Positions 4,995-51,694 of a stretch of DNA of 64,000 nt are shown piece by piece. Under the pieces are notes generated by a model. It was not told the DNA's origin and searched no databases. It saw only the letters and a list, made by a program, of their open reading frames with translations. The first letter of the stretch is position 1. Every line of letters begins with the position of its first letter. The position numbers and the translations under genes were made by a program. The DNA comes from Oricola indica (GTDB lineage: Bacteria > Pseudomonadota > Alphaproteobacteria > Rhizobiales > Rhizobiaceae): contig NZ_JAINFJ010000004.1 in assembly GCF_019966595.1 (NCBI RefSeq), positions 62,001 through 126,000 of the forward strand, given 5' to 3'.

Positions 4995-6311
4995 TCAGGC
5001 CGGCAGCAGGAACAACGTGATGGCGGGGAACATGACGAGGATCGCGACGCGGACGATGTCGGACCCGACGAAGAACAGCACGCTCTTGTAGGTCGATGTC
5101 ATCGGGGTTTCCCGATCCATCGCATTGATGATGAAGAGATTCATGCCGACAGGCGGCGTGATCAGCCCGACCTCCACCACGATCAGGACGAGAATGCCGA
5201 ACCAGATGGCCAGATGCTCCGGCGTCATCCCGAAATCGAGCGCGCTGATGACCGGAAAGAAGATCGGGATCGTCAGCAGGATCATCGACAGGGAATCCAT
5301 CAGGCAGCCGAAGATCAGGTAGAAGACGAGGATCAGCATCAGCACGATCCACGGGCTGAACCCCTGGCTGACGACGAAGCTGGACAGTTCCTGCGGCACC
5401 TGGCTCAGCGCCAGGAACGAATTGTAGAAGCCGGCGCCAAGAACGATGAAGAAGATCATCGCCGTCGACATCGCCGTCGAAAGGATGCTGTCGGCGAAGA
5501 CCTTCCAGTTGAGATTGCCCGAGAGAAGCGCGATCATCCCGGTGCCGGCCGCACCGACCGCCGCGCCCTCCGTCGGCGTGAACCAGCCGAGATAGATGCC
5601 GCCCACAACGACGAGAAAGACGATCAGCACGGGCCAGACATCGAGCAGCGCGCGGATGCGTTCCGCATAGGGCTGCGGCTCGCGCGTGCCGGCCGCGTCC
5701 GGATAGAGCCGCACATAGATCGAGATCGTGATCATGTAGCCGATCGCCGCGAGGACGCCCGGAATGAAGGCGGCAAGGAACAGCTTGGCGATGTTCTGCT
5801 CGGTCAGGATCGCGTAGATCACCAGGATGACCGAAGGCGGGATCAGGATGCCCAGCGTGCCGCCGGCGGCGAGCGTCGCGGTGGAAAACCCGCCCGAATA
5901 GCCGTAGCGGCGCAGTTCCGGCAGCGCCACACGGCTCATCGTCGCCGCGGTGGCCAGCGACGAGCCGCAGATCGCGCCGAAACCGGCGCAAGCCCCGACG
6001 GCTGCCATGGCGACGCCGCCGCGCCGGTGGCCGAGCCAGCTCTCCGCCGCCTTGAACAGCGCCGACGACATGCCGGAAAGCGTCGCAAACTGCCCCATCA
6101 GAAGGAACATCGGAATGATCGACAGCGAGTAGCTGGAAAAGGTCGTGTAGGTCTCGGTCTTGAGCTTGGCGAGGAACACCGTCGGCCCGCCCATCGCGAG
6201 ATAGAGCCCGCCGATGCCGCAAAGCATCATGGCAAGGCCGATCGGCGCGCGCAGGAAGATCAGCACCAACAGCACGGGAAAGGACAGATATCCCATTTCG
6301 AGCATGCTCAA
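4995..6311 (-). CDS. TRAP transporter large permease (DctM-type)
   Basis: 438-residue, about 12-helix membrane subunit of a Na+-driven tripartite (TRAP) importer. Family signatures include LSGMSSALFKAAESWLGHRRGG, GAICGSSLATAATMSRVALPEL and GGTLGILIPPSVILVIYAILTEQ. The TTG start overlaps the upstream DctQ stop as TTGA; AAGGAG stands seven bases before it, supporting TTG over the in-frame ATG at 6305. It forms one transport unit with the small permease and binding protein upstream. Identity is secure; the substrate is unknown but should be a carboxylate (see the binding protein). Confidence 0.94.
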   Translation of the reverse strand: MSMLEMGYLSFPVLLVLIFLRAPIGLAMMLCGIGGLYLAMGGPTVFLAKLKTETYTTFSSYSLSIIPMFLLMGQFATLSGMSSALFKAAESWLGHRRGGVAMAAVGACAGFGAICGSSLATAATMSRVALPELRRYGYSGGFSTATLAAGGTLGILIPPSVILVIYAILTEQNIAKLFLAAFIPGVLAAIGYMITISIYVRLYPDAAGTREPQPYAERIRALLDVWPVLIVFLVVVGGIYLGWFTPTEGAAVGAAGTGMIALLSGNLNWKVFADSILSTAMSTAMIFFIVLGAGFYNSFLALSQVPQELSSFVVSQGFSPWIVLMLILVFYLIFGCLMDSLSMILLTIPIFFPVISALDFGMTPEHLAIWFGILVLIVVEVGLITPPVGMNLFIINAMDRETPMTSTYKSVLFFVGSDIVRVAILVMFPAITLFLLPA

Positions 6312-6889
6312 TGGGCCGCTCCTTCAGACCGCGGCAGGTAATGGCCGCCGGTGATCAGCCCGAAAACGCGGGCGATGGCGCAATAGACCCCGACGATGAC
6401 CGCCACGACCGAACCGGCGAAACTTGCCGCATAGGCCCACCAGATCGGAAATTGCAGGAGAAAGGTCGTCTCGCCATTGCCGAACTTGGACTGCAGTCCT
6501 TCATAGAGGCGCCAGCAAATGACCACGAGCAAGATTACCAGCGCGACCTCCCAGAAGGCGACGATGAAGCGATTGACAGCCTTCGGCATCAGATTGGTGA
6601 AGACATCGACGGTCGCGTGGCCACCATGCAGCTGGCAGATCGGCAGGAAGGCGAAGATGGAAAAGGCGATACCGGCCTCGACCACCTCGAAATCACCCTT
6701 CACCGGGCCAAAGGTTTTCAGCATGTCGGCGAAGGCCGGAACCAGCCCCTCCAGAAATTCCGAATGGCCGAGCGTATTGAAACCGCGCCCGATGACGCTG
6801 ACGCAGGTCAGGACGACCAGCGCGGTGAGCACGATACCGCCGACAAGCGCCATGACGCGCGCCAGCAGCTCCATCAACCTGAGAATCAA
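6308..6889 (-). CDS. TRAP transporter small permease (DctQ-type)
   Basis: 193 residues with four predicted membrane helices (starting at LARVMALVGGIVLTALVVLTCVS and ending at AYAASFAGSVVAVIVGVYC), the usual DctQ fold. It partners the large permease whose start overlaps this stop codon. The TTG start is preceded by GGAGGAG four bases upstream, a very strong ribosome site. The long first periplasmic loop and helix-2 motif match the family; sequence in this subunit is otherwise poorly conserved. Confidence 0.9.
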   Translation of the reverse strand: MILRLMELLARVMALVGGIVLTALVVLTCVSVIGRGFNTLGHSEFLEGLVPAFADMLKTFGPVKGDFEVVEAGIAFSIFAFLPICQLHGGHATVDVFTNLMPKAVNRFIVAFWEVALVILLVVICWRLYEGLQSKFGNGETTFLLQFPIWWAYAASFAGSVVAVIVGVYCAIARVFGLITGGHYLPRSEGAAH

Positions 6890-14625: not shown

Positions 14626-15600
14626 ATGAAGACAGTCAAGACATTGATGGCCGCCACGGCCATCGCCACGCTCGGCACAAGCGCCGCGCTGGCGGAAAAG
14701 TGGGACATGCCCATGGCCTATGCCGCCACCAACTTCCATTCGGAAGTCGGCGCCGAATTCGCCAAATGCGTGACCGACGGGACCGATGGCGCACTGGAGA
14801 TCGTCACTCACCCTTCCGGTTCGCTATTCTCGGGCAACGAGATCAAGCGTGCGGTGCAGACCGGCCAGGCCAATATCGGCGAACGCCTGATCTCCGCGCA
14901 TCAGAACGAGAACCCGCTCTACGGCGTCGATTCCATTCCGTTCCTCGTCTCCTCCTTCGACGAGCATGAGAAGCTCTGGTCGATCGCCGGGCCGAAAGTT
15001 GCCGCCGCGCTCGATGCGGACAATCTGCACTATCTCTATTCCGTGCCGTGGCCGCCGCAGGGCCTCTACATGAACAAGGAGATCAACTCGGTCGAGGATC
15101 TCAAGGGCGTGAAGTTCCGCTCCTATTCGACCGCCACGGCTCGCATGGCTGAACTGACTGGCATGCTGCCGGTGCAGGTCGAAGCCGCCGAACTGTCTCA
15201 GGCGCTGGCCACCGGCGTTGCAGAGAGCTTCATCTCGTCGGGCGCCACGGGTTACGACCGCAAGGTCTGGGAGCATCTCAGCCACTTCTACGAAGTCGAT
15301 GCGTGGCTGCCGCGCAACATCGTCTTCGTCAACAACGACGCATGGAACGGCCTGGACGATGCCACCAAGGCCGTCATGAACGACTGCGCCGCAGCGGCGA
15401 AGGCCGACGGATTGCAGCGCTCCAAGGACTACACCCAGTTCACGCTGGATGGCCTCAAGGAAGGCGGCATGACGGTTCAGCGCGCCGGCGATACGCTGGT
15501 CGAGGAACTCCAGGCCATCGGCGAGACCATGACCAATGAGTGGCTGGAAAGCGCCGGCGAAGATGGCAAGGCCATCGTCGACGAGTACAAGTCCATGTAA
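14626..15600 (+). CDS. TRAP transporter substrate-binding protein (second system)
   Basis: 324 residues from the ATG at 14626, preceded by GGGAGA; the frame continues upstream to 14362 inside the flavoprotein gene but that part is spurious. Signal peptide MKTVKTLMAATAIATLGTSA with cleavage near ALAEK. DctP hallmarks: LKGVKFRSYSTA (Arg for the ligand carboxylate) and QVEAAELSQALATG. It is unlike the first receptor at 6959-8014 in sequence, so the two TRAP systems probably bind different ligands. First gene of the P-Q-M set in this operon. Confidence 0.92.
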   Translation: MKTVKTLMAATAIATLGTSAALAEKWDMPMAYAATNFHSEVGAEFAKCVTDGTDGALEIVTHPSGSLFSGNEIKRAVQTGQANIGERLISAHQNENPLYGVDSIPFLVSSFDEHEKLWSIAGPKVAAALDADNLHYLYSVPWPPQGLYMNKEINSVEDLKGVKFRSYSTATARMAELTGMLPVQVEAAELSQALATGVAESFISSGATGYDRKVWEHLSHFYEVDAWLPRNIVFVNNDAWNGLDDATKAVMNDCAAAAKADGLQRSKDYTQFTLDGLKEGGMTVQRAGDTLVEELQAIGETMTNEWLESAGEDGKAIVDEYKSM

Positions 15601-42465: not shown

Positions 42466-43968
42466 ATGACGACGATTACCCATTACATCGCCGGTTCGCC
42501 GACCAGAGGCACCGCCGACCGTAGCCAGCCGGTCTTCAATCCCGCTACCGGCGAAGCGGAGAAAGAGGTGATCCTGGCCTCCGAGCAGGACGTCAACGAT
42601 GCGGTCGCCGCCGCTAAGGCCGCATGGCCGGCATGGTCGAAGACGCCGTCGCTACGCCGCGCCCGCATACTCGACAAGTTCAAGACCATCCTGTGGGAGC
42701 GCGCGGACCAGCTCGCCGAAGCGATTTCCGCCGAACACGGCAAGACCCATGACGACGCGCTCGGCGAAGTGACGCGCGGCCTCGAGGTCGTCGAGTTCGC
42801 GATCGGCGCGCCGACCCATCTCAAGGGCGAATTCTCAGAAAGTGTCGGCACCGGTGTCGATACCCATTCGATCCGCCAGCCGCTTGGCGTCGTCGCCGGC
42901 ATCACCCCGTTCAACTTCCCGGCCATGGTGCCGATGTGGATGTTCCCCGTCGCGCTCGCCTGCGGCAACACCTTCATCCTCAAGCCGTCGGAGCGCGACC
43001 CGTCCCCCTCGCTGCTGATCGCTGAATGGCTGACCGAGGCCGGCCTGCCGGAGGGTGTGTTCAATGTCGTCCAGGGCGACAAGGTGGCTGTTGACGCGCT
43101 GCTGCACCACCCGGACGTCAAGGCCATCTCCTTCGTCGGATCGACCCCGATCGCGAGATATATACACATCACCGGCGTGACCAACGGCAAGCGCGTTCAG
43201 GCGCTCGGCGGCGCCAAGAACCACATGATCGTGATGCCCGACGCCGATCTCGACATGGCGGCCAACGCCCTGATGGGCGCGGCCTTCGGCTCGGCCGGCG
43301 AGCGCTGCATGGCGATCTCGGTCGCCGTTCCCGTCACGGACGCCGTCGCCGACGCGCTGATCGAGCGGCTGGTGCCGAAGATCGAGGCGCTGAAGATCGG
43401 CCCGGCCGCCGACCGCTCCTCCGAGATGGGTCCGGTCGTCACGCAACAGGCACGGGAGAAAATCCTCGGCTATATCGACGCGGGCGAAAAGGAAGGCGCA
43501 AAGCTGGTTGTCGATGGGCGCACCTTCAAACAGCAGATGCAGGGCTACGAGAACGGCTACTATGTCGGCGGCACGCTGTTCGACAATGTCACGCCGGACA
43601 TGTCGATCTATCGCGACGAGATCTTCGGCCCGGTGCTGTCGGTTGTGCGCCGCAACTCCTACCAGGAAGCGGTCGATCTGATCCACGGCCATGAATACGC
43701 CAACGGCACGGCGGTCTTCACCCGCGACGGCGACACGGCGCGCGCCTTTTCGCAGGATATCGAGGTCGGCATGGTCGGCATCAACGTGCCGATCCCGGTT
43801 CCGATGGCGTTCCACTCCTTCGGCGGCTGGAAGGCCTCGATCTTCGGCGACCACGCGATGCACGGCATGGAGGGCGTACGTTGCTACACCCGCATCAAGA
43901 CGACCACCACGCGGTGGCCGGGCGGCATACGCGACGACGCGCAGTTCACCATGCCGACGCTTGGCTGA
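42466..43968 (+). CDS. mmsA: CoA-acylating methylmalonate-semialdehyde dehydrogenase
   Basis: 500 residues of the aldehyde dehydrogenase superfamily. Catalytic Cys281 lies in [11 protein letters not shown] and Asn150 in [15 protein letters not shown], a combination characteristic of MmsA, which converts methylmalonate or malonate semialdehyde to propionyl- or acetyl-CoA in valine, beta-alanine and inositol breakdown. Good ribosome site (AAGGAGG). Monocistronic with a hairpin after it. May finish pathways fed by the catabolic genes to the left, including inositol- or pyrimidine-type routes that give malonate semialdehyde, but that link is inference. Confidence 0.95.
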
Positions 43969-44135: not shown

Positions 44136-44163
44136 TTGCGATCGGCGTTCGTTCAGCTAGAAT
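44136..44163 (+). promoter_or_regulatory. Candidate promoter of the RiPP-like operon
   Basis: TTGCGA (44136-44141), 16-base spacer, TAGAAT (44158-44163). The start point would fall near 44170, about 35 bases before the first precursor gene. It is the best match in the 237-base gap; the rest of the gap holds nothing I recognise. Confidence 0.5.
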
Positions 44164-44205
44164 GTACGAAAATCAGCGATTTCTGACATAAGTGGAACGA
44201 AACTG

Positions 44206-44295
44206 ATGACGAAAAAGAAAGAATATCGCAAGCCTGCAATCGCAAAGAGAACACTGATCTCGAAAGTGGTTGCCGCTCCGTCAACCGGGGTATGA
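44206..44295 (+). CDS. RiPP-like precursor peptide 1
   Basis: 29 residues, MTKKKEYRKPAIAKRTLISK as leader region, then VVA and a C-terminal APSTGV. Tyr7-x-x-Pro10 is the YxxP leader element that lasso-type recognition proteins bind. After the conserved VVA (21-23) only six residues remain, including Ser26. GTGGAA lies nine bases before the ATG. First of five homologous tandem genes; slightly divergent, with Ile18 in place of the aligned Leu. Confidence 0.8.
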   Translation: MTKKKEYRKPAIAKRTLISKVVAAPSTGV

Positions 44296-44301
44296 GCCTT
44301 C

Positions 44302-44322
44302 GGGGCTGACACGCCCCATTTT
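44302..44322 (+). terminator. Stem-loop between precursor genes 1 and 2
   Basis: GGGGC / GCCCC with a six-base loop, followed by ATTTTC. May reduce read-through from precursor 1 into the rest of the operon, or protect the 3' end of a short precursor transcript. Confidence 0.45.
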
Positions 44323-44392
44323 CGCTTGACGTCCGGCATTTGTGGCTGGGATATTCCCGCCAGAGCAAGATTTCCTGAATATGGAGAGAACG

Positions 44393-44488
44393 ATGGATAC
44401 CCGATCGAAGCGGATTTATGTGAAACCGGCGCTTGTGAAGCAGGAAAAGCTTCCATCGGTTGTCGCACGCAACTCCGATCCCGCCTAG
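44393..44488 (+). CDS. RiPP-like precursor peptide 2
   Basis: 31 residues from the ATG with GGAGAG four bases upstream (an in-frame ATG at 44381 lies within the ribosome-site region). Leader RIYVKPALVKQ with Tyr9-x-x-Pro12, Leu20, VVA at 23-25, then RNSDPA with Ser28. Very close to precursor 3 over the leader (KRIYVKP-[AT]-LVKQ identical), pointing to recent duplication, while the C-terminal hexapeptide differs completely except for Ser. Confidence 0.85.
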   Translation: MDTRSKRIYVKPALVKQEKLPSVVARNSDPA

Positions 44489-44604
44489 AAAGTTCACCAT
44501 CCCGTTTCGCTTGGGCTTTCAACCCGCCGCCCCTTTACGGAGCGCGCCGGGTTGCAATAAGCAGCGGATCTGACAGGCCAATTCCGGTAAAAAGGAAGAA
44601 TTTT

Positions 44605-44700
44605 ATGAAGAGCCAAGCGAAACGAATTTATGTGAAGCCGACGCTGGTCAAGCAGTCGACGCTCGCCGGCGTTGTTGCGACCGGATCGCCTGAGAAATAG
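44605..44700 (+). CDS. RiPP-like precursor peptide 3
   Basis: 31 residues, strong site AAGGAAG six bases before the ATG. Leader AKRIYVKPTLVKQ (Tyr9, Pro12), Leu20, VVA 23-25 and tail TGSPEK with Ser28. The upstream gap holds an imperfect hairpin with CAACCCG (44520-44526) and CGGGTTG (44548-44554) arms. Confidence 0.86.
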   Translation: MKSQAKRIYVKPTLVKQSTLAGVVATGSPEK

Positions 44701-44770
44701 AATACCTTCCCATCGTCCTCGCTGGAATTCAGCGCGTCGATCCATAAACCAGGGAAAGGAAGGGAAACAG

Positions 44771-44863
44771 ATGTCAGCCAGGAAAACCTATACGAAACCC
44801 GTCCTCCTGAAAAAGCAGGCGCTGACCGCGATTGTGGCGGGCGGCTCCGCGCGCCCAACCTAG
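44771..44863 (+). CDS. RiPP-like precursor peptide 4
   Basis: 30 residues; GGAAAGGAAGGGAA precedes the ATG. Leader KTYTKPVLLKKQ (Tyr7, Pro10), Leu18, IVA 21-23 and tail GGSARPT with Ser26. A short hairpin (CGCTG / CAGCG) lies in the gap after precursor 3. Confidence 0.85.
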   Translation: MSARKTYTKPVLLKKQALTAIVAGGSARPT

Positions 44864-44866
44864 GAA

Positions 44867-44894
44867 GAGTCGACCGTTCGAGATCGACTCCTTT
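44867..44894 (+). terminator. Stem-loop between precursor genes 4 and 5
   Basis: GAGTCGA / TCGACTC, a 7-bp perfect stem with a ten-base loop, followed by CTTTTC. It resembles a weak intrinsic terminator and, with the hairpin after precursor 1, may set the dose of precursors relative to enzymes. Confidence 0.45.
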
Positions 44895-44937
44895 TCGGCA
44901 CTGTAAGCCGCTTACCGTATTGGAGAGGACAGGAAAA

Positions 44938-45027
44938 ATGACGAAAAAGAGATACGAAAAACCCGCGGTCACGAAATCCGGCGTGCTGTCGGCCGTTACC
45001 GCACAGGTTTCCTCCGGAAATGGCTGA
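44938..45027 (+). CDS. RiPP-like precursor peptide 5
   Basis: 29 residues; GGAGAGGACAGGAAAA precedes the ATG. Leader KRYEKPAVTKSG (Tyr6, Pro9), Leu17, VTA 20-22 and tail QVSSGNG with Ser25. The only copy with Thr at the position where true lasso leaders keep a penultimate Thr; the others have Val. Its Ser-Gly-Asn-Gly end is the most RiPP-core-like of the five. 68 bases before the recognition-protein gene. Confidence 0.85.
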   Translation: MTKKRYEKPAVTKSGVLSAVTAQVSSGNG

Positions 45028-45095
45028 CGAAATCCGGCCGGCTTCGGCTCTGTGACCGTTTCAGTATAAAACACGTCCGACAGTTGTGAGAGTTC

Positions 45096-45371
45096 ATGTC
45101 AGCGTCCAAGGTTTACGCGCTTTCGCCAATCGCCTCCTTTGAAACCGTCGGCGACGGCGCTGTCATTCTCCTTGGCGACAGCGGGCAGCTCTATTCATGC
45201 AACGACACGTCGGAAGCATTTCTGAGGAATGTCGACGGACAGCGCTCGATCGACGAGATCGCCCGGCTGATGGAGAGCGAGTACGACGTCGCGCTCGAAA
45301 CGCTGATCGGCGACCTGAATGAGCTTGCCGCCGAACTGGAATCCGAGGGAATCGTCGTTAGCGCGGAGTGA
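45096..45371 (+). CDS. PqqD-like RiPP recognition protein (lasso B1-type)
   Basis: 91 residues: three beta strands (SFETVGDGAVILLGDSGQLYSCNDTSEAFL) followed by helices (IDEIARLMESEYDVALETLIGDLNELAAELESEGIV), the winged-helix fold of PqqD and lasso B1 proteins. This domain binds the YxxP part of a RiPP leader and delivers the peptide to the modifying enzymes. Immediately follows the five precursors and overlaps the B2-type gene, the normal B1-B2 order. Confidence 0.9.
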   Translation: MSASKVYALSPIASFETVGDGAVILLGDSGQLYSCNDTSEAFLRNVDGQRSIDEIARLMESEYDVALETLIGDLNELAAELESEGIVVSAE

Positions 45372-45820
45372 TGGGCGCGGTCATGCCTGCAATCGGCCAT
45401 TGGCAGCGATGGCGCCTCCTGCTCGATATCTGGATCGCGGCGCGATTCCTCCCCTTCCGCATTCGCGGTAAAAGCTTCTCCGAAATATTGAGACTTGCCG
45501 AGCACGGCAACCAGGGCGACGTTCCGCATCTGCCGGTACCCGACATCGCGCGGTTTGTCCGCAAGGCGGTTCGCAACCCGATCCTGATGCGCGATCGGCG
45601 CTGCCTGCGCGCCGGGTTGGTCGGCTACGAATACCTCCGCAGGGCCGGCTATCGGCCACAGCTTCATTTCGCGGTGGACGAGGGGTCGATCGGTTCGCCC
45701 CGGATCTCCGCGCATTGCTGGGTATCGATCGATGGCGAGGAAGTGATCAACAACCGCATGGATGGCCAGGTTACGATATACGTGCATCCCTCGCAGACCG
45801 GAGCGACCAAAGGACAATGA
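45371..45820 (+). CDS. Lasso B2-type transglutaminase-like leader peptidase
   Basis: 149 residues from ATG 45371 (a GTG at 45368 is possible). The N-terminal helix WQRWRLLLDIWIAARFLPFR precedes a C-terminal cysteine-protease domain with Cys78 (RRCLRAGLVGYEYLRRAGY), His115 (SAHCWVSIDG) and Asp121, the triad of lasso B2 enzymes. It should cut the leader from the precursors. Overlaps the PqqD-like gene's stop by one base and the kinase gene by four, so all are made together. Confidence 0.9.
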   Translation: MGAVMPAIGHWQRWRLLLDIWIAARFLPFRIRGKSFSEILRLAEHGNQGDVPHLPVPDIARFVRKAVRNPILMRDRRCLRAGLVGYEYLRRAGYRPQLHFAVDEGSIGSPRISAHCWVSIDGEEVINNRMDGQVTIYVHPSQTGATKGQ

Positions 45821-46827
45821 TCACACGCTGGTTCGATCTTCATGCCGGCGCCTTGCGGGTCGATGCGGAAAACCCGCTGCAAATGAACTCGTTCTCGCGC
45901 ATTTTCAGCGACGAAACGATCGCTGCCGCCGACAGCGCCGCATTCGCGCTGACGATCCGCGAAGGCGAACCCGAATCCGCGCCGGATGGTGCGACCTTGA
46001 TCTATGCAGGACCGGTTTTCGACGAAGGCGACTGCCGGTTCACTTCACATGATGGAACGCAGTACCTGCAATTCCCCGACCGCGTGACACTCATACTGGC
46101 CGCCGACAAGCGCCACGCGTCGATCACGGTTGCGCCGGGCTGCGAAAGAAGCGCGGGCCAGTCAGTTGCGATGCTTGTTCTGCACGCGGCGGCCAACGCC
46201 ACCGGGCAATTCCTGCTGCATTCTGCCGGCGTAACGATGCCGGGCAGCGATGATCTCGTTGTCATTTTCGGCCAAAGCGGCGCGGGGAAGACCACCACCA
46301 CCCTGGCGCTCTGCGATGCGGGGTTCGGCCTGTGCTCGGACGATGTGATGGTTTTCCGGGTCGACGCCGACGGCGTGACCGCCTGGGGGTTGCCGCGCAA
46401 TCTGAAGGTTCACCGGAAGACCGCGGAGATGCTGGATTGGGTGGCGCCCCGGCTTTCGGGCGATTGGAGCGACGAAGACGAGCGCCGCCTTCTGCAGGCG
46501 GATATAGCGGACCGGATTCGCATCGAACCCACCGGGCGGCGGCCGGTCGCCGGCCTGTTCAAACTGGAGCGGAGCGGACGCACGGAGAGCGACGTGCTCG
46601 CGCTCGCCGCGACCGAAACCCTCGCGGCGCTCGCGGCCGACAACATGCGAATAGGCAAGACCGGCCTGGTCGAGGGCGAAATCAGGCAATTCAGCCTGCT
46701 GGCCGCCATCACCAGAACGCTCCCCACCTTCAGGCTGTGCGCCGGATCGGACCTGAGCACGATCGCACCGGCGGTCGAAACAGCGATCGCGGAGGATCGG
46801 CAGCGCCGTGACGTCAAGGCAAACTGA
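45817..46827 (+). CDS. HPr kinase-related protein (putative RiPP kinase)
   Basis: 336 residues. P-loop GQSGAGKTT (152-160) followed by GLCSDDVMVF (Ser174-Asp-Asp), the HprK core; the N-terminal 140 residues are not the normal HPr kinase domain. No HPr or PTS genes are nearby. HprK homologues in some lasso clusters (paeninodin type) phosphorylate a Ser of the peptide, so the conserved Ser of the five precursors is the obvious target here; this is inference from family precedent. Confidence 0.85.
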   Translation: MITRWFDLHAGALRVDAENPLQMNSFSRIFSDETIAAADSAAFALTIREGEPESAPDGATLIYAGPVFDEGDCRFTSHDGTQYLQFPDRVTLILAADKRHASITVAPGCERSAGQSVAMLVLHAAANATGQFLLHSAGVTMPGSDDLVVIFGQSGAGKTTTTLALCDAGFGLCSDDVMVFRVDADGVTAWGLPRNLKVHRKTAEMLDWVAPRLSGDWSDEDERRLLQADIADRIRIEPTGRRPVAGLFKLERSGRTESDVLALAATETLAALAADNMRIGKTGLVEGEIRQFSLLAAITRTLPTFRLCAGSDLSTIAPAVETAIAEDRQRRDVKAN

Positions 46828-47770
46828 AGCGCTGCTATGCCGGCTGGCGGATCCCGAAGCGCCGGTCCCGAACGTGCCTCCCGGGCACCTTCCCCGAATC
46901 GCGCAGATGGCGAGCGATCACAATGTCGGGCCGGTCGTGCTGCGCAAACTGGCCGGAACATGCGATCCGGAGATCGTCTCCGACCTCAAACGCGAAGTCG
47001 AAGCGACCATCGCGCTGACCCTGCGCCTGCGCGGTCTGGCAAACGATGTCTCCGCTTTCATCCGCGAAAACGGCATCGCCGCGACGATGGTGAAAGGCCG
47101 GAGCTTTGCGACGCGTCTCTATCCGGTCCCCGGCGACCGCCCCTTCACCGACATCGACATTCTCGTTTCACCGGATGCGCGTGAAGCGTTCGCCGGGTTC
47201 CTGACGGATCGCGGTTTCCGGCTGCACAAGCGGGCGGCATTCGACAACACGGTCGCCAACCAGGAAGAAAAATGGCTGCATGAAGACGTTCCGGCATTGC
47301 TGATCGAAGTCCATGGAAACCTCGTTCATTACGAGGGGCTGCGCCGGCGCGTGAGCTTTTCCTACGACGATTTGATACGGATCGACCCTGACGACCCGGA
47401 AGCGCCATTGTGCCTGTTCTTTCTGGCCGTCGTCCACGGAACGCTCGGCCACAAACTCCACCAGATACGCTTCCTGGTCGATGTGCTGCAGGCTTTCAGA
47501 AAACTCGACACCAATGACCGGGAGAAACTGCCGCAATTGGCCGCCGACCTGCATCTGAGCATCGAGACGGCCCTTTGCCTTCGCCTGATCGCGGAAATGT
47601 TCGATGAGACGGCCGCGGCGGAACTGGCGAGCCGTTTCACCTTTTGCCCGCTCGCGTCGCTCGGCAGGGACATGATTACGGCGCAGGTCGTCATCGATGC
47701 CCCGTATTCGCGCATGTCGCGACTGCGCAGGCATGCTTTTCGCTGGATACAGAGAACGATACGCCGTTAG
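46808..47770 (+). CDS. Nucleotidyltransferase-family protein of the RiPP locus
   Basis: 320 residues from GTG 46808, overlapping the kinase by 20 bases. Metal-binding FTDIDILVSPD (Asp115 and Asp117) and the conserved MVKGRSF (Lys96-Gly97) place it in the large nucleotidyltransferase family often found beside HprK-like kinases and lasso genes. In paeninodin-type clusters this neighbour has unproven function. It may transfer a nucleotide or, using the phosphorylated peptide, a further group. The C-terminal half is helical with no recognisable motif. Confidence 0.83.
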   Translation: MTSRQTEALLCRLADPEAPVPNVPPGHLPRIAQMASDHNVGPVVLRKLAGTCDPEIVSDLKREVEATIALTLRLRGLANDVSAFIRENGIAATMVKGRSFATRLYPVPGDRPFTDIDILVSPDAREAFAGFLTDRGFRLHKRAAFDNTVANQEEKWLHEDVPALLIEVHGNLVHYEGLRRRVSFSYDDLIRIDPDDPEAPLCLFFLAVVHGTLGHKLHQIRFLVDVLQAFRKLDTNDREKLPQLAADLHLSIETALCLRLIAEMFDETAAAELASRFTFCPLASLGRDMITAQVVIDAPYSRMSRLRRHAFRWIQRTIRR

Positions 47771-47857
47771 CTGCGTGAACCGGCCATCAGGCCACGTTCA
47801 TTTTCGATCCCGGTTCAGCTAAACAGTCACGCAAAACAAGACCGCAAGACAAAGACA

Positions 47858-49285
47858 ATGAGTTCCGAAACCGCTTCCGTCCTGTCGATGCTACCCGTTT
47901 CCGCCCGGATTTCCGACGTGCGGACCGGAAGGGAGATGTCGGCGTCCGATATCGGGCGGGCGGCGCGGAAGGGCGCTGTCGAGTTGTCGGCGCTCGGCCT
48001 TGATCACGGGGCGCGCATTGTGGTTTCGGAGTCCGACGGCATCGATTTCCTGATCGCGCTTTTTGCGTGCTGGGAAGCAGGCTTCGTCGCCGTCGGCGTC
48101 AATTCGGCGCTGACCGGCGCGGAACAGGAAAATGTCATCGAGGCGACCGGCGCGAGGCACTGGATCGGCGAACGCCGCTGCGACATGCCGCAACCGGACC
48201 CGGACACTGCATCCGCCGCCATGCCCTTGGGACTGGACGAGCCGGCTCTGATCCTGATGACATCGGGCACCACGGGCCGTCCGAAAGGCATCGTCCATTC
48301 ACGGCGCAGCCTGCTGGTCCGGATTTCCCTGAACATCGCGGAAATCGGGCGCGACACGTTGAGCCAGGTCCTGTGCGTGCTGCCGGTGTTCTTCGGCCAC
48401 GGCCTCATCGGCAATTGCCTGACGCCGCTTTTCGCCGGCGGGCATGTCCACATATGGACGGTTCCGGACATGTCGGAAATGCGCGGGCTTTCCTCTGTCG
48501 TCGAGACACGCCGGATCGGCTTCATGAGCTCCGTTCCGTCTTTCTGGAAGATCGCACTGCGCGTTTCCGACTCGCCATCCATACCCATGACCCGAATCCA
48601 TGTCGGCTCGGCCCCGCTTTCGATCGGCCAGTGGCGGGATATCGCGAAATGGGGCGGCACCGACAATGTCTTCAACATGTTCGGCATGACCGAAACCGCG
48701 AACTGGATCGGCGGCGGTTCGCTGCGCGACGATCGGGCATGCGACGGCTATGTCGGACCGATATGGGGCGGCGCACTCGCCGTGCGCGACGAAAACGGCC
48801 ATATTTCCGGCCAGGGACGCGGCGAGGTCCTGGTGCAGACGCCGTCGATCATGCTGGGCTACTGGCAGCGCCCCGATCTGCAGACGGAGGCCTTTTGCGA
48901 CGGCTGGTTCCGTACCGGCGATACGGGCAAAATCGACGAAGAAGGCCATCTTGTGCTGGCCGGCCGGATTAAATCGGAGATCAATCGCGGCGGCATCAAG
49001 GTGCAGGCCGAGGAGGTCGACATGATGCTCGAACGCCATGCGGATATCGCAGAGGCCTGCGCCTTCGGCATCCCGGACCCGGTCGCGGGAGAGGCCGTTG
49101 CGGCCGCGGTCGTGCTCAAACCGGGATCGGACTTCGATGCGGAGGCAATCAAGGCCTGGTGCAGGACACAGGCCCGCGCCGACGCGGTACCGTCCCGCCT
49201 CTACAAGCTCGACGCCATCCCGCGCAACGATCGCGGCAAGATCGTGCGGGCCGATGTGCGAAACCTCGTCGCCGACGAAACGTGA
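47858..49285 (+). CDS. AMP-forming acyl/aryl ligase (adenylation enzyme)
   Basis: 475 residues of the ANL superfamily. Core motifs: ILMTSGTTGRPKGIVH (P-loop), NMFGMTETANW, GWFRTGDTGKIDEEGHLVLAGRIKSEIN and the C-terminal RNDRGKIVR with the catalytic Lys. It activates an acid as its adenylate and passes it to a thiol. With an acyl carrier protein two genes on, the thiol is probably that carrier's phosphopantetheine rather than CoA. Substrate-pocket residues do not identify the acid. 87 bases after the nucleotidyltransferase; weak ribosome site. Confidence 0.9.
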   Translation: MSSETASVLSMLPVSARISDVRTGREMSASDIGRAARKGAVELSALGLDHGARIVVSESDGIDFLIALFACWEAGFVAVGVNSALTGAEQENVIEATGARHWIGERRCDMPQPDPDTASAAMPLGLDEPALILMTSGTTGRPKGIVHSRRSLLVRISLNIAEIGRDTLSQVLCVLPVFFGHGLIGNCLTPLFAGGHVHIWTVPDMSEMRGLSSVVETRRIGFMSSVPSFWKIALRVSDSPSIPMTRIHVGSAPLSIGQWRDIAKWGGTDNVFNMFGMTETANWIGGGSLRDDRACDGYVGPIWGGALAVRDENGHISGQGRGEVLVQTPSIMLGYWQRPDLQTEAFCDGWFRTGDTGKIDEEGHLVLAGRIKSEINRGGIKVQAEEVDMMLERHADIAEACAFGIPDPVAGEAVAAAVVLKPGSDFDAEAIKAWCRTQARADAVPSRLYKLDAIPRNDRGKIVRADVRNLVADET

Positions 49286-49881
49286 GCGCGTTCTTCATGA
49301 AAGCCAGAAGCAAGCTCGCCCGGCCGCTCGAAACGGAACGGTTCATCCTCGAGCCGATGGGCCCGATACGGTTCATGATCGAAACCCGCGAGATACGCCG
49401 CGACCCGGAAATCCTCGCGGGCCTGTTCCAGACTTCAAAACCGCGCTCCGCGTGGAAATGGGCGAGAACCATGTCCCTTCCCGACAACCGCACCAAGTTC
49501 GCGTTCTCGATCACGCCCAAATCGGGCGGCCGATCCATCGGCTTTCACAAGGTCAAGATGCGCGGATACCGGTCCGCCTTCAATTCCGTCGCCATCGGGG
49601 ATCGCGAATGGTGGGGCAAGGGGGTCGTCCTGGAGGTACGCGCCAAGCTCATGAATCACTTCTTTTCCTGTTCCGACGTCGAGCGTTTCTACGGTGTCGT
49701 CGAGGCGCGCAACACCGCATCCATCTTCAACTACCGGCGGCTGGGATACGACCACGTCGGGAGCTGGCACCGCAGCAACCAGAACCCGCAGACGGGCGAG
49801 GTCGTCGATTTCCTGAATTTCGAGATCTTCAAGGACAAGTGGATGGCCGGTCCCTGGGCGGAGAAAAACGATGACGCCTGA
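49282..49881 (+). CDS. GNAT-family N-acyltransferase of the RiPP locus
   Basis: 199 residues from GTG 49282 (GTGA overlap with the ligase stop; ATG 49297 also possible). RimJ/RimL-like GNAT: opening LETERFILEPMGP, acyl-donor loop region IGDREWWGKGVVLEVRAKLMNHFF and NTASIFNYRRLGY. It should move an acyl group to an amine. Placed between the ligase and the carrier, so the donor may be acyl-ACP and the acceptor a Lys or N-terminus of the peptide; inference. Confidence 0.85.
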   Translation: MSAFFMKARSKLARPLETERFILEPMGPIRFMIETREIRRDPEILAGLFQTSKPRSAWKWARTMSLPDNRTKFAFSITPKSGGRSIGFHKVKMRGYRSAFNSVAIGDREWWGKGVVLEVRAKLMNHFFSCSDVERFYGVVEARNTASIFNYRRLGYDHVGSWHRSNQNPQTGEVVDFLNFEIFKDKWMAGPWAEKNDDA

Positions 49882-50089
49882 CGACCGCGCCTGCGAAATC
49901 GTCGCGAAAGCCCTCAAGATCGATGGCGGTCACGTATCGATCGACGACACGATGGAAACCCTGCCGGCGTGGGACAGCCTGGCCCACATGTCGATCGTCC
50001 TGACGATCGAGGCCGAAACGAACCGCCAGCTTCGCGCCGAGGAAATCGCCTCCATCCTGTCGGTCAGGTCCGTCGCCGAACTGCTTTAG
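49871..50089 (+). CDS. Acyl carrier protein of the RiPP locus
   Basis: 72 residues, acidic, four-helix ACP fold with the phosphopantetheine Ser36 in LPAWDSLAHMSIV (D-S-L motif). Not the fatty-acid AcpP: sequence and context differ. Overlaps the GNAT gene by 11 bases and is the last recognisable gene of the operon. 50090-50185, beyond it, shows no gene. Confidence 0.92.
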   Translation: MTPDDRACEIVAKALKIDGGHVSIDDTMETLPAWDSLAHMSIVLTIEAETNRQLRAEEIASILSVRSVAELL

Positions 50090-50185
50090 GATGCGGCCCG
50101 GCTGCGATTTATATCTGGGAAATCCGCGGAGAAATTGGCACTTTCGCCCCGGTTCACAAGGGAAGCCGGTATTCGGTCTTGGTCT

Positions 50186-50201
50186 ATGGCGGAGAGGGTG
50201 G
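50186..50201 (+). repeat. Left 16-base direct repeat of the tRNA-Ser 3' end (att-like)
   Basis: ATGGCGGAGAGGGTGG, identical to 51604-51619, which covers the discriminator, CCA and acceptor-stem 3' side of tRNA-Ser. Such duplicated tRNA ends mark the outer edge of an integrated element. Confidence 0.75.
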
Positions 50202-50266
50202 CCGCCTGAGTTTTGATCATGATCGCCTGGGTTTGAAAGAGTGTTGAGCCTTACTAATTTTTATTT

Positions 50267-50294
50267 TTGTGACAGGCTTCTAATACGTTATGAT
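50267..50294 (+). promoter_or_regulatory. AT-rich promoter of the orphan gene
   Basis: TTGTGA (50267-50272), 16 bases, TATGAT (50289-50294), about 33 bases before the TTG start of the gene that follows. The surroundings are far more AT-rich than the chromosome. Confidence 0.5.
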
Positions 50295-50327
50295 TAAAGT
50301 AGTTAATTGTGAGATGTAGGTGCTGTT

Positions 50328-50993
50328 TTGGATCGGAAGAATATAATATTATCGTTATCTGCTTTAATTTCGGCACTTGGTACTGTTGCTTGCTCAGACG
50401 AACTCTCACGGGAAAAGGCAGCGGAAATATTAAGAGCCGCAGATAGAAAACCCTATGTTGAGGCTATACGTTTTAGAGGAGTTTGGCAGACATTTGACAG
50501 TGAAGAAGAACGAGACAGGTGGCTATCGCAGGTTAATTCATACCTCAATTATAACGGAATTATAAATATAAATGGATACAATGATTATAAAGATAAATTA
50601 AAATCAATACTTGAGTGGAAAGAGCTAGGTGTAGTGGAGAAATATTCTTTGTTTACAGGCAAAACCGGCTCGGCTGGAGGTGCGAAAGTCCGACCGGCCT
50701 TACTTTCAAATCCAGTTTTATCAATAGAAGGGAGAAGATTTTGCCGAATTATTGGAAGTCACATTCAAAATCAAGAGATGATAAAATGTGAATTACCAAT
50801 ATATATATGGAATTTCGAAAAAATTACGGGAATACGAGAGGCAGGAGAACGGAAGGTGGTTGAATATACTATGACACGTGAACTGACACCGTATGCTGCA
50901 AAAAGTATAATGTGGCGCGGTAGCCCAGAGACAATGACCGAGTCGGCAAATTTCATCCGATATGATGATGGATGGCCACTCGCTTCTTTCTAG
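50328..50993 (+). CDS. Orphan secreted or lipoprotein-like protein, AT-rich
   Basis: 221 residues from TTG 50328 (TAGGTG about seven bases upstream); I do not recognise a family. The N-terminus (NIILSLSALISALGTVACSDEL) is a signal sequence with a Cys that could be lipidated, although TVAC is a poor lipobox. The mature part is mixed charged/aromatic (Tyr-Asn rich: SYLNYNGIININGYNDYKDK) with Cys in RRFCRIIGSH. Codon use and base composition are sharply AT-rich compared with neighbours, so it was acquired by transfer. No mobility gene accompanies it. Confidence 0.72.
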   Translation: MDRKNIILSLSALISALGTVACSDELSREKAAEILRAADRKPYVEAIRFRGVWQTFDSEEERDRWLSQVNSYLNYNGIININGYNDYKDKLKSILEWKELGVVEKYSLFTGKTGSAGGAKVRPALLSNPVLSIEGRRFCRIIGSHIQNQEMIKCELPIYIWNFEKITGIREAGERKVVEYTMTRELTPYAAKSIMWRGSPETMTESANFIRYDDGWPLASF

Positions 50994-51603
50994 AGCTTCG
51001 TAAGGCGTCCCGGCAACTTCTGCACTACCCAGAGTCAGATACTTAAGTGCCGCGTTTTATCGGCGCACTGTTTTGGGGGAAGTTACGATCCATTGCTCGA
51101 ATCTACTCCATCTATTTCCTCGCATGTGCGGCAACGTCGCCGAATGCGGGCATAACAGGAGCATCGCGGCCCGTCGCGGCCGATCGACACATTGACAGTG
51201 AAGGATGCCCATCTGGCAAAACGCGCGTGTCGCGGTATACGCCTTAGTCGGTCGCGGCTGGCGTTTACCGCCAATGGCATTGGGTATTTCGCTATGCCGT
51301 TTCTCACCGAGACGAGGAGAATGTTCTCGAGAACAAGGTTTCATTGCGGACATGGTTCGGCTGAAGGTAGTGCTTCATCCTCCAATCAAAGCGGGTCCGA
51401 GCATTCTCCCGACGAAACTCACTTCCAACGAAGGCTACTAAGTTTATAAGGAACAATCGCTTCCACGCAGTCGTGTTATCGTTGTTTATCAGTATGTTGG
51501 TCGTGGTATGGTAAGTTTCTAACTGCTTCCAAGACATTCCCCGGGTTAAGCCGGGAGAATAGCTGCCAAAATCTATTAAATACAAATAGAATCAATATGC
51601 CTG
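50994..51603. other. Right part of the tRNA-linked insert, no supported gene
   Basis: About 610 bases of intermediate GC. Several short frames exist on both strands (up to about 98 codons) but they overlap one another, have poor starts and no recognisable motifs. I see no integrase, transposase, terminal repeat or RNA gene. Most likely decayed element DNA. Confidence 0.5.
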
Positions 51604-51619
51604 ATGGCGGAGAGGGTGG
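51604..51619 (+). repeat. Right 16-base direct repeat, inside tRNA-Ser
   Basis: ATGGCGGAGAGGGTGG, matching 50186-50201. It covers the CCA end, discriminator and acceptor 3' strand of tRNA-Ser on the minus strand, leaving the tRNA intact. Confidence 0.75.
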
Positions 51620-51694
51620 GATTCGAACCCACGATAGAGTCACCCCTATACCGCATTTCGAGTGCGGCGCTTTCGACCACTCAGCCACCTCTCC
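51605..51694 (-). tRNA. tRNA-Ser (anticodon CGA)
   Basis: 90 bases including an encoded CCA. Acceptor GGAGAGG pairs with CCTCTCC; anticodon stem CCGCA/TGCGG encloses CTCGAAA, so the anticodon is CGA (reads UCG); T loop GTTCGAATC is normal; the long variable arm is that of a class II serine tRNA. The 3' end is duplicated 1.4 kb away. Confidence 0.97.

Follow-up and report, generated by a model that had tools for sequence, protein, structure and literature searches.

The 64,000-nucleotide stretch of the Oricola indica genome analysed here (the window) harbours at 44206-50089 a gene cluster that appears to direct the synthesis of ribosomally synthesized and post-translationally modified peptides (RiPPs), with most of the enzymes of a lasso peptide pathway and no lasso cyclase. 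Twelve genes were confirmed, namely five small precursor genes followed by seven enzyme and carrier genes at 45096-50089, and all the genes listed in a preliminary description of the same DNA are thus present.

44206..44295, +, precursor 1, 29 amino acids (aa), predicted core APSTGV
44393..44488, +, precursor 2, 31 aa, predicted core RNSDPA
44605..44700, +, precursor 3, 31 aa, predicted core TGSPEK
44771..44863, +, precursor 4, 30 aa, predicted core GGSARPT
44938..45027, +, precursor 5, 29 aa, predicted core QVSSGNG
45096..45371, +, B1, a discrete PqqD-like RiPP recognition element (RRE); PqqD PF05402, 45.4 bits
45371..45820, +, B2, a lasso-type transglutaminase-like leader Cys peptidase; NF033537, 51.6 bits, cut-off 33
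45817..46827, +, predicted HprK-like peptide kinase, weakly HprK; PF07475, 19.6 bits, cut-off 33.3
46808..47770, +, nucleotidyltransferase-fold protein (NT); PF14907, 89.7 bits, invariant KG...DxD
47858..49285, +, AMP-forming acid ligase; AMP-binding, 163.1 bits
49297..49881, +, GNAT N-acyltransferase; PF13302, 42.5 bits, alternative GTG start at 49282
49871..50089, +, acyl carrier protein (ACP); PP-binding, 22.3 bits, phosphopantetheine Ser

The genes had been described as nearly all overlapping. This holds for most of the enzymes (B1/B2, B2/kinase, kinase/NT and GNAT/ACP have overlapping ends) and not for NT and ligase, which are 87 base pairs (bp) apart, ligase and GNAT, 11 bp apart when the ATG start is used, or the precursors, spaced by 70-116 bp. 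The RRE and the leader peptidase of lasso peptide biosynthesis are both represented, with PF05402 and NF033537 above cut-off, and a B1 profile of 13 sequences matches the solved TfuB1 and TbiB1. The Cys and His of B2 are invariant in 13 of 13 sequences; no sequence relatives of B2 were found in the PDB at E ≤ 0.1. His135, Lys158, Asp175 and Asp176 of the kinase are invariant in 13/13 and 17/17 aligned kinases and, mapped by order and spacing, are the counterparts of the His, Lys, Asp and Asp that are essential in lasso kinases (PMC9266682; this and the other papers are cited throughout from the available part of their text). The curated models of HprK-related kinases A and B (TIGR04352 and TIGR04355) were rejected, at 23.4 and 26.3 bits against 200, and three relatives also scored far below. 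In NT, KG and DxD are kept in 12 and 18 aligned sequences; a search with its predicted fold gave weak nucleotidyltransferase matches (MenT1, LnuA, ANT(2'')), none under E 0.001, and the PDB sequence search only chance-level rows.

No lasso cyclase is encoded in the operon, as had been stated earlier, and the organism's own genome (assembly 99.3% complete) holds no candidate either. A PF00733 search of this genome returned one strong protein and two weak matches. The strong one is an N-acetylglutaminylglutamine amidotransferase (TIGR03104, 1012.9 bits, cut-off 570.1) that reaches 214.2 bits on the lasso cyclase model against a cut-off of 525, and the weak ones resemble, by eye, MnmA and ArgG. 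A cyclase acting in trans from this genome was rejected on these identities.

Recurrence of the cassette without a cyclase

When the kinase was used as query against 297 genomes of the order, 35 had a match at E ≤ 0.001 and 13, the window's own included, at E < 1e-20; the latter are referred to as cassette genomes. B1, B2 and NT lie close to the kinase in all 12 further genomes, so that the four-gene set without a cyclase recurs well beyond the window. No cyclase match was found in the stretches fetched from these 12 relatives (about 20 kb, 11 kb for L043), some of which stop at contig ends, the L035 stretch beginning just past that genome's lasso cyclase. Four of the 13 cassette genomes have weak PF00733 matches only (best E-values 5.8e-5 in G161, 7.5e-6 in G244, 2.6e-6 in G282 and 1.0e-8 in G132), and the cyclase has therefore not merely been relocated, at least there. 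Within the genus, one of five other genomes searched (G703) contains the four genes of the cassette together with a precursor, and 20 kb of it gave no match to a cyclase or to the trio of ligase, GNAT and ACP. In each of five genomes from one sister genus (L059-L063), a complete lasso cluster equipped with a separate B1, B2, cyclase, kinase and NT lies some 10-30 kb from the cyclase-free cassette.

A scan of the collection with a ligase alignment named at least 79 loci. Among the matches listed (79 loci), 14 hold all seven genes without a cyclase match (L090, L095, L097, L099, L101, L102, L104, which is the same locus as L045, L107, L108, L113, L114, L140, L149 and L163), L103 has the full set minus a B2 match, and L118 is cut by a contig end. 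The gene order of the window is retained in L090, from a Notoacmeibacter metagenome-assembled genome (MAG), and in L095.

For most of the cyclase-free loci the kinase or the ligase of the window served as the query, a sampling bias from which a class-wide census of B2 is free. The lasso B2 model located 40 places in 385 genomes of the class, the window included, and 37 loci were fetched for the other 39 (two further G077 loci were fetched and left uncounted). A cyclase match was present in 28 of the 37, neither cyclase nor kinase in seven, and B1, B2 and kinase without a cyclase in two, L198 and L204, the only such loci in the census besides the window; a profile of the precursors, described below, had no match in any of the 37. 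No B2 match was obtained on plasmids. In a quick midpoint-rooted B2 tree of 73 rows and 143 columns, a single 28-row clade holds 26 of the 28 cyclase-free B2s together with those of L105 and the contig-cut L118. Its support in the Shimodaira-Hasegawa approximate likelihood ratio test (SH-aLRT), 94, lies just under the starred level, and its cyclase-free rows were mostly found by similarity to the window. Outside this clade fall 35 of 36 cyclase-linked B2s as well as L198 and L204. Because the cassette recurs in 12 further genomes and the B2s form their own clade, the locus is not merely a lasso cluster minus one gene.

Precursor peptides near and far from the cassette

The five tandem genes of 29-31 aa with YxxP leaders (44206-45027), reported earlier as precursors, each start with ATG, and a simple Shine-Dalgarno pattern is matched upstream of four; precursor 5 scores 14.2 bits on the lasso leader model NF033521, under its cut-off of 19. 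From the window and its relatives 97 precursors were gathered, excluding L104, the three divergent precursors of L042 and one later-found precursor of L210. Placement required position -17 to be Tyr or Cys, -14 to be Pro or Ala and -1 to be Ala or Ser, and 95 were placed under this rule; L096 was unplaceable and L161, at a contig edge, has no core. Leader length is fixed, the Tyr-to-Ala interval being ungapped in all 95. Tyr occupies -17 in 94, Pro -14 in 87, Leu -6 in 90, Thr, Val, Ala and Ser -2 in 67, 17, 10 and 1, and Ala and Ser -1 in 91 and 4, conservation at -17, -14 and -1 being partly by construction because the placement rule restricted these positions, and the counts not independent because many rows are near-copies (L114, L078/L079). 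Four of the five window leaders have Val at -2.

Core statistics were based on 92 precursors, leaving out cores above 40 residues (L040, L102, L149). These cores are 6-19 residues long (median 10.5); all 92 contain Ser or Thr and 89 contain Ser, which lies at core position 3-6 in 82, compared with 43.3 (standard deviation 4.5, maximum 57) over 2000 within-core shuffles. Ser3 is present in 5/5 window cores, for which shuffled cores give a chance of 1.9e-4. A simple rule for lasso cores asks for Gly, Ala, Ser or Cys at position 1, Asp or Glu at positions 7-9, and a tail; this ring rule together with a length of at least 14 is obeyed by none of the five window cores and by 1 of the 92.

The leaders are under in-frame purifying selection, with a pooled ratio of nonsynonymous to synonymous change (pN/pS) of 0.34 versus 1.43 and 1.63 in the other frames, from 175 non-independent within-locus pairs; the five leaders of the window alone give 0.53. 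A profile built on 24 precursors, which came from 8 cassette genomes, matches 12 of the 13, and four of these 12 (G209, G136, G069, G161) supplied no profile sequence. In 20 genomes without a good kinase match, the profile had no match at E ≤ 0.01 and two at 0.03 and 0.08. These controls were hand-picked among genomes lacking a kinase match better than 5e-9 (five have weak ones) and include seven of the same family, two of them from the sister genus whose other species carry the cassette. Precursors and cassette hence occur together in the genomes tested, and in view of this and the in-frame selection on the leaders, the five window precursors are more than chance open reading frames (ORFs).

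Some arrays depart from this layout. At L114:8262-9628 (-) nine tandem precursors, with a tenth at 15076, combine varied leaders with a near-identical core, GANFSGKK; across these ten genes, which have nearly one core start, pN is 0.01 and pS 0.61 over the first six codons. Three YVPP precursors with proline-rich tails lie next to the cyclase-free cassette at L042:7449-8527 (-). In the closest relative, L090, a reading frame judged AraC-like by eye stands directly upstream of the precursor (5960-6863, +); no such gene was seen directly upstream of the precursors in the window.

Eight genomes have precursors located away from the cassette, as lone genes or small arrays amid unrelated genes (L076-L089). 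Within 9-18 kb around 14/14 of these distal loci (L082 starts at a contig end) there was no match to B1, B2, kinase, NT or cyclase, and nine neighbouring genes that were tested have no Pfam family in common. At L040:7357-7752 (-) and L149:13435 (+) a precursor leader is fused in one ORF to a domain like the S74 chaperone of endosialidase, assigned by Pfam in the former and by resemblance in the latter; such fusions might be substrates of far greater size for these enzymes.

A proposed pathway and its alternatives

We consider it likely that the locus encodes a cyclase-free, lasso-derived RiPP pathway in which one enzyme set produces several short linear phosphopeptides. B1 would bind Tyr(-17)xxPro(-14) of each leader and so bring the precursor to both the kinase and B2. 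The conserved core Ser, Ser3 in the window, would be phosphorylated, and perhaps polyphosphorylated, by the HprK-like kinase; NT may then add a nucleotide or a sugar onto the Ser phosphate; and B2 would cleave after Ala(-1), freeing peptides of 6-7 residues. Finally, the ligase would activate an acid and load the ACP, from which the GNAT would pass the acyl group on to an amine, the N-terminus newly exposed on the peptide being the likeliest target.

Leader binding, Ser phosphorylation and the cleavage site are modelled on characterised relatives. The lasso precursor BsfA has Tyr-17, Pro-14, Leu-12 and Ile-2, the register found here, and its Ser3 is phosphorylated by BsfK with assistance from BsfB1 before BsfB2 cuts (PMC10368454). 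LppK phosphorylates Ser3 of a linear peptide, on which up to four phosphates were observed (PMC13381572). The NT product, the acyl group and its target are guesses; PsmN has been linked to hexose addition on phospho-Ser (PMC9266682), and deletion of LppN brought no change in the test host (PMC13381572). A RiPP locus with no lasso cyclase and a short, phosphorylated or nucleotidylated product is what the preliminary description had proposed, and this part of it is supported, kinase and NT most likely acting on the conserved core Ser; its suggestion that ligase, GNAT and ACP replace the cyclase is not.

Of the 13 cassettes found by the kinase search, 10 have no trio in the stretch that was fetched; among the 12 relatives it is present in G043 and G160. 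GNAT relatives (E ≤ 1e-8) occur in 12 of 385 genomes of the class, the window's own included, and at the 12 GNAT places outside it a related ligase and ACP adjoin ten, an ACP only one, and neither one; no B2 was found in these 11 other genomes. Trio and cassette are thus separable, and the trio is an accessory, not a substitute for the cyclase.

On what the trio acts is less certain. In the window and in 15 further full-set loci without a cyclase match it adjoins the cassette or lies within it, in varying gene order. A quick ligase tree with 79 rows gathers all 18 ligases that have a kinase and B1 close by into a single set of 35 (SH-aLRT 90). The peptide N-terminus is the only amine common to the five window cores, since Lys is found in one of them only. 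Acylation of this N-terminus by the trio is therefore a plausible suggestion, if a slightly doubtful one. The phosphopeptide could also be made as proposed while the trio works off the peptide, for example on an amino sugar that NT later attaches or on an unrelated surface glycan. We regard this as possible and clearly less probable than the pathway as proposed, the position of the trio at the cassette in varied gene orders and the ligase grouping speaking against it. The core type shared by L044 and L045, of which only L045 has the trio, speaks for it. It is favoured by the 11 genomes with GNAT relatives, mostly in trios, and no B2, where a few neighbours, read by eye, resemble glycan genes. 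Among the 13 loci tested in the ligase set of 35 that have no nearby kinase, five have a B2 elsewhere in the genome (L096, L098, L106, L138, L161) and eight have none (L091-L094, L100, L109, L111, L115), the latter again favouring an off-peptide role; outside the set, a B2 was found in the genome for one of nine tested loci (L124). Many of the genomes in this comparison are MAGs.

The phosphopantetheine Ser is present in 71/71 aligned ACPs. The nearest solved relative of the ligase is oxalyl-CoA synthetase, and naming its acid from such enzymes was dropped as not specific enough. The GNAT model has a prediction confidence (pLDDT) of 95.6, and a fold search returned generic SpeG/RimJ-like GNATs, with the lasso-peptide acetyltransferase 9iy3 at rank 17. 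Selidamides are GNAT-acylated RiPPs and share with the present system a GNAT with a possible role in acylating a ribosomal peptide; they differ in that here a ligase and an ACP stand beside the GNAT, together with a lasso-type B1/B2/kinase set.

Several observations weigh against the pathway as proposed. Three of the 92 cores, all from L163, have Thr and no Ser. The L042 precursors of G077 are divergent and escaped the profile, and next to the cassettes L034, L035 and L036 no precursors were recognised by regular expression and profile; these three genomes carry distal ones. The third residue of the Cys/His/Asp triad earlier ascribed to B2, Asp, is not conserved among the 13 sequences in which Cys and His are invariant. 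No transporter is found among the genes of 44206-50089, and the clusters of the Linear Polyphosphorylated Peptides (LPP) and of Bsf, compared below, have one. The link between trio and peptide is purely genomic, as the trio occurs in genomes without B2, and L044, which lacks the trio, shares the core type IKPVSG with L045, which has it, so that no imprint of the trio is seen in the core. L105, from Roseovarius, is the sole exception among full seven-gene sets in having an asparagine-synthase-like gene nearby, which passes the asparagine-synthase model and fails the lasso-cyclase cut-off (197.2 vs 525).

A small cofactor or signal excised from the precursor in the manner of pyrroloquinoline quinone (PQQ), and not an exported peptide, would fit the PqqD-like B1, the tiny cores, the transporter-free operon and the many scattered precursors of some genomes. 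This is improbable, as the seven enzymes include no oxidoreductase or radical-SAM gene, and the cores, Ser aside, vary more widely than a single cofactor would tolerate. More improbable still is a true lasso pathway served by a cyclase encoded elsewhere. The cyclase matches in 28 of the 37 B2 loci of the class sample, the gene near L105 and the lasso clusters close to the cassette in the five sister-genus genomes could be taken in its favour. Those clusters, however, possess their own B1, B2, kinase and NT; the window's genome has no candidate, a good PF00733 protein is lacking in four of the 13 cassette genomes, and the cores are 6-19 residues long, with one in 92 obeying the ring-and-length rule. 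A degenerate, non-functional remnant of a lasso cluster, to which the patchy occurrence of the kinase (in two of the six genomes of the genus, counting the window's) might point, is least probable of all given the retained catalytic residues, the coding selection on the leaders, the ten near-identical cores of L114 with their low pN, and the separate B2 clade.

The operon is flanked by an aldehyde dehydrogenase gene (42466-43968) on one side and on the other by an AT-rich stretch and tRNA-Ser (51605-51694, -). The AT-rich stretch, at 50000-51500, has a GC content of 0.44-0.46 versus about 0.63 in the surroundings, ends near the tRNA gene and holds one ORF of 222 aa without a Pfam match; it may be the edge of an island.

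Relation to known phosphopeptide and lasso systems

The closest parallel in working is LPP, published in May 2026 and stated to be restricted to Bacillota (PMC13381572). LPP and the present locus share the lack of a cyclase, a discrete RRE, a YxxP leader, an HprK-like kinase and an NTP transferase; the core Ser3 phosphorylated in LPP is present, by sequence, in all five window cores; and LPP clusters often neighbour lasso clusters, the LPP-paeninodin neighbourhood reported there having a counterpart in the sister-genus lasso clusters near the cyclase-free cassette. In contrast, LPP uses a SipW-like signal peptidase and has an MsbA-like transporter in the cluster, whereas here a lasso-type B2 and no transporter are found in the operon. 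An archaeal-type SpI (SipW-like) peptidase was likewise not found in the own genome, where the best TIGR02228 match, on another contig, reaches 21.5 bits (cut-off 51.85). LPP precursors of 35-200 aa carry a YxxPxVLxHQxIxFETxxS motif, unlike the many precursors with cores of 6-19 residues described here, and an acyl module occurs in some loci of the present family (PMC13381572 for LPP). The Bsf lasso system of Bradymonas sediminis shares B1, B2, kinase, NT, the Tyr-17/Pro-14/Leu-12 register, a branched aliphatic residue at -2 (Ile in BsfA, Val in all but one of the five window leaders) and Ser3, phosphorylated there and present here, and differs in having a lasso cyclase and an ABC transporter (PMC10368454). 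Paeninodin and pseudomycoidin share an HprK-like kinase with His-Lys-Asp-Asp, and in pseudomycoidin the NT PsmN is needed for the hexose on phospho-Ser; they differ in having a cyclase and in phosphorylation of a C-terminal Ser, the Ser being near the core N-terminus here (PMC9266682).

The locus thus lacks the defining lasso feature, the cyclase, and two defining LPP features, the SpI peptidase and the transporter. It probably belongs to an alphaproteobacterial RiPP lineage whose linear phosphopeptides are processed by B2 without a cyclase and which works in an LPP-like manner, with an acyl module at this locus. The type had been said to look undescribed, which is too broad, as a cyclase-free RiPP with an HprK-like kinase and an NTP transferase is already published (LPP, PMC13381572); the B2-processed alphaproteobacterial variant is what is new. 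A literature search, most subscription papers being outside its reach, found no report that Alphaproteobacteria have a B2/kinase/NT family lacking the cyclase.

These results suggest that a phosphorylated, cyclase-free branch of the lasso machinery exists as an alphaproteobacterial lineage of its own that has kept the lasso B2. The distal precursors further suggest that many small peptides are tagged by a single set of enzymes; no report of such a role was found. Chances are evenly balanced that this extends to a separate RiPP lineage in which one B1-B2-kinase-NT cassette serves tiny precursors dispersed over the genome, two of them fused to S74 domains, with one sub-lineage N-acylated from acyl-ACP to give linear acyl-phosphopeptides. 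If the pathway is as proposed, B2 would be used outside the making of lassos, phosphopeptide RiPPs would extend to very short cores, the multi-precursor arrays would be decodable by mass, and the family would offer a natural test of the role of NT.

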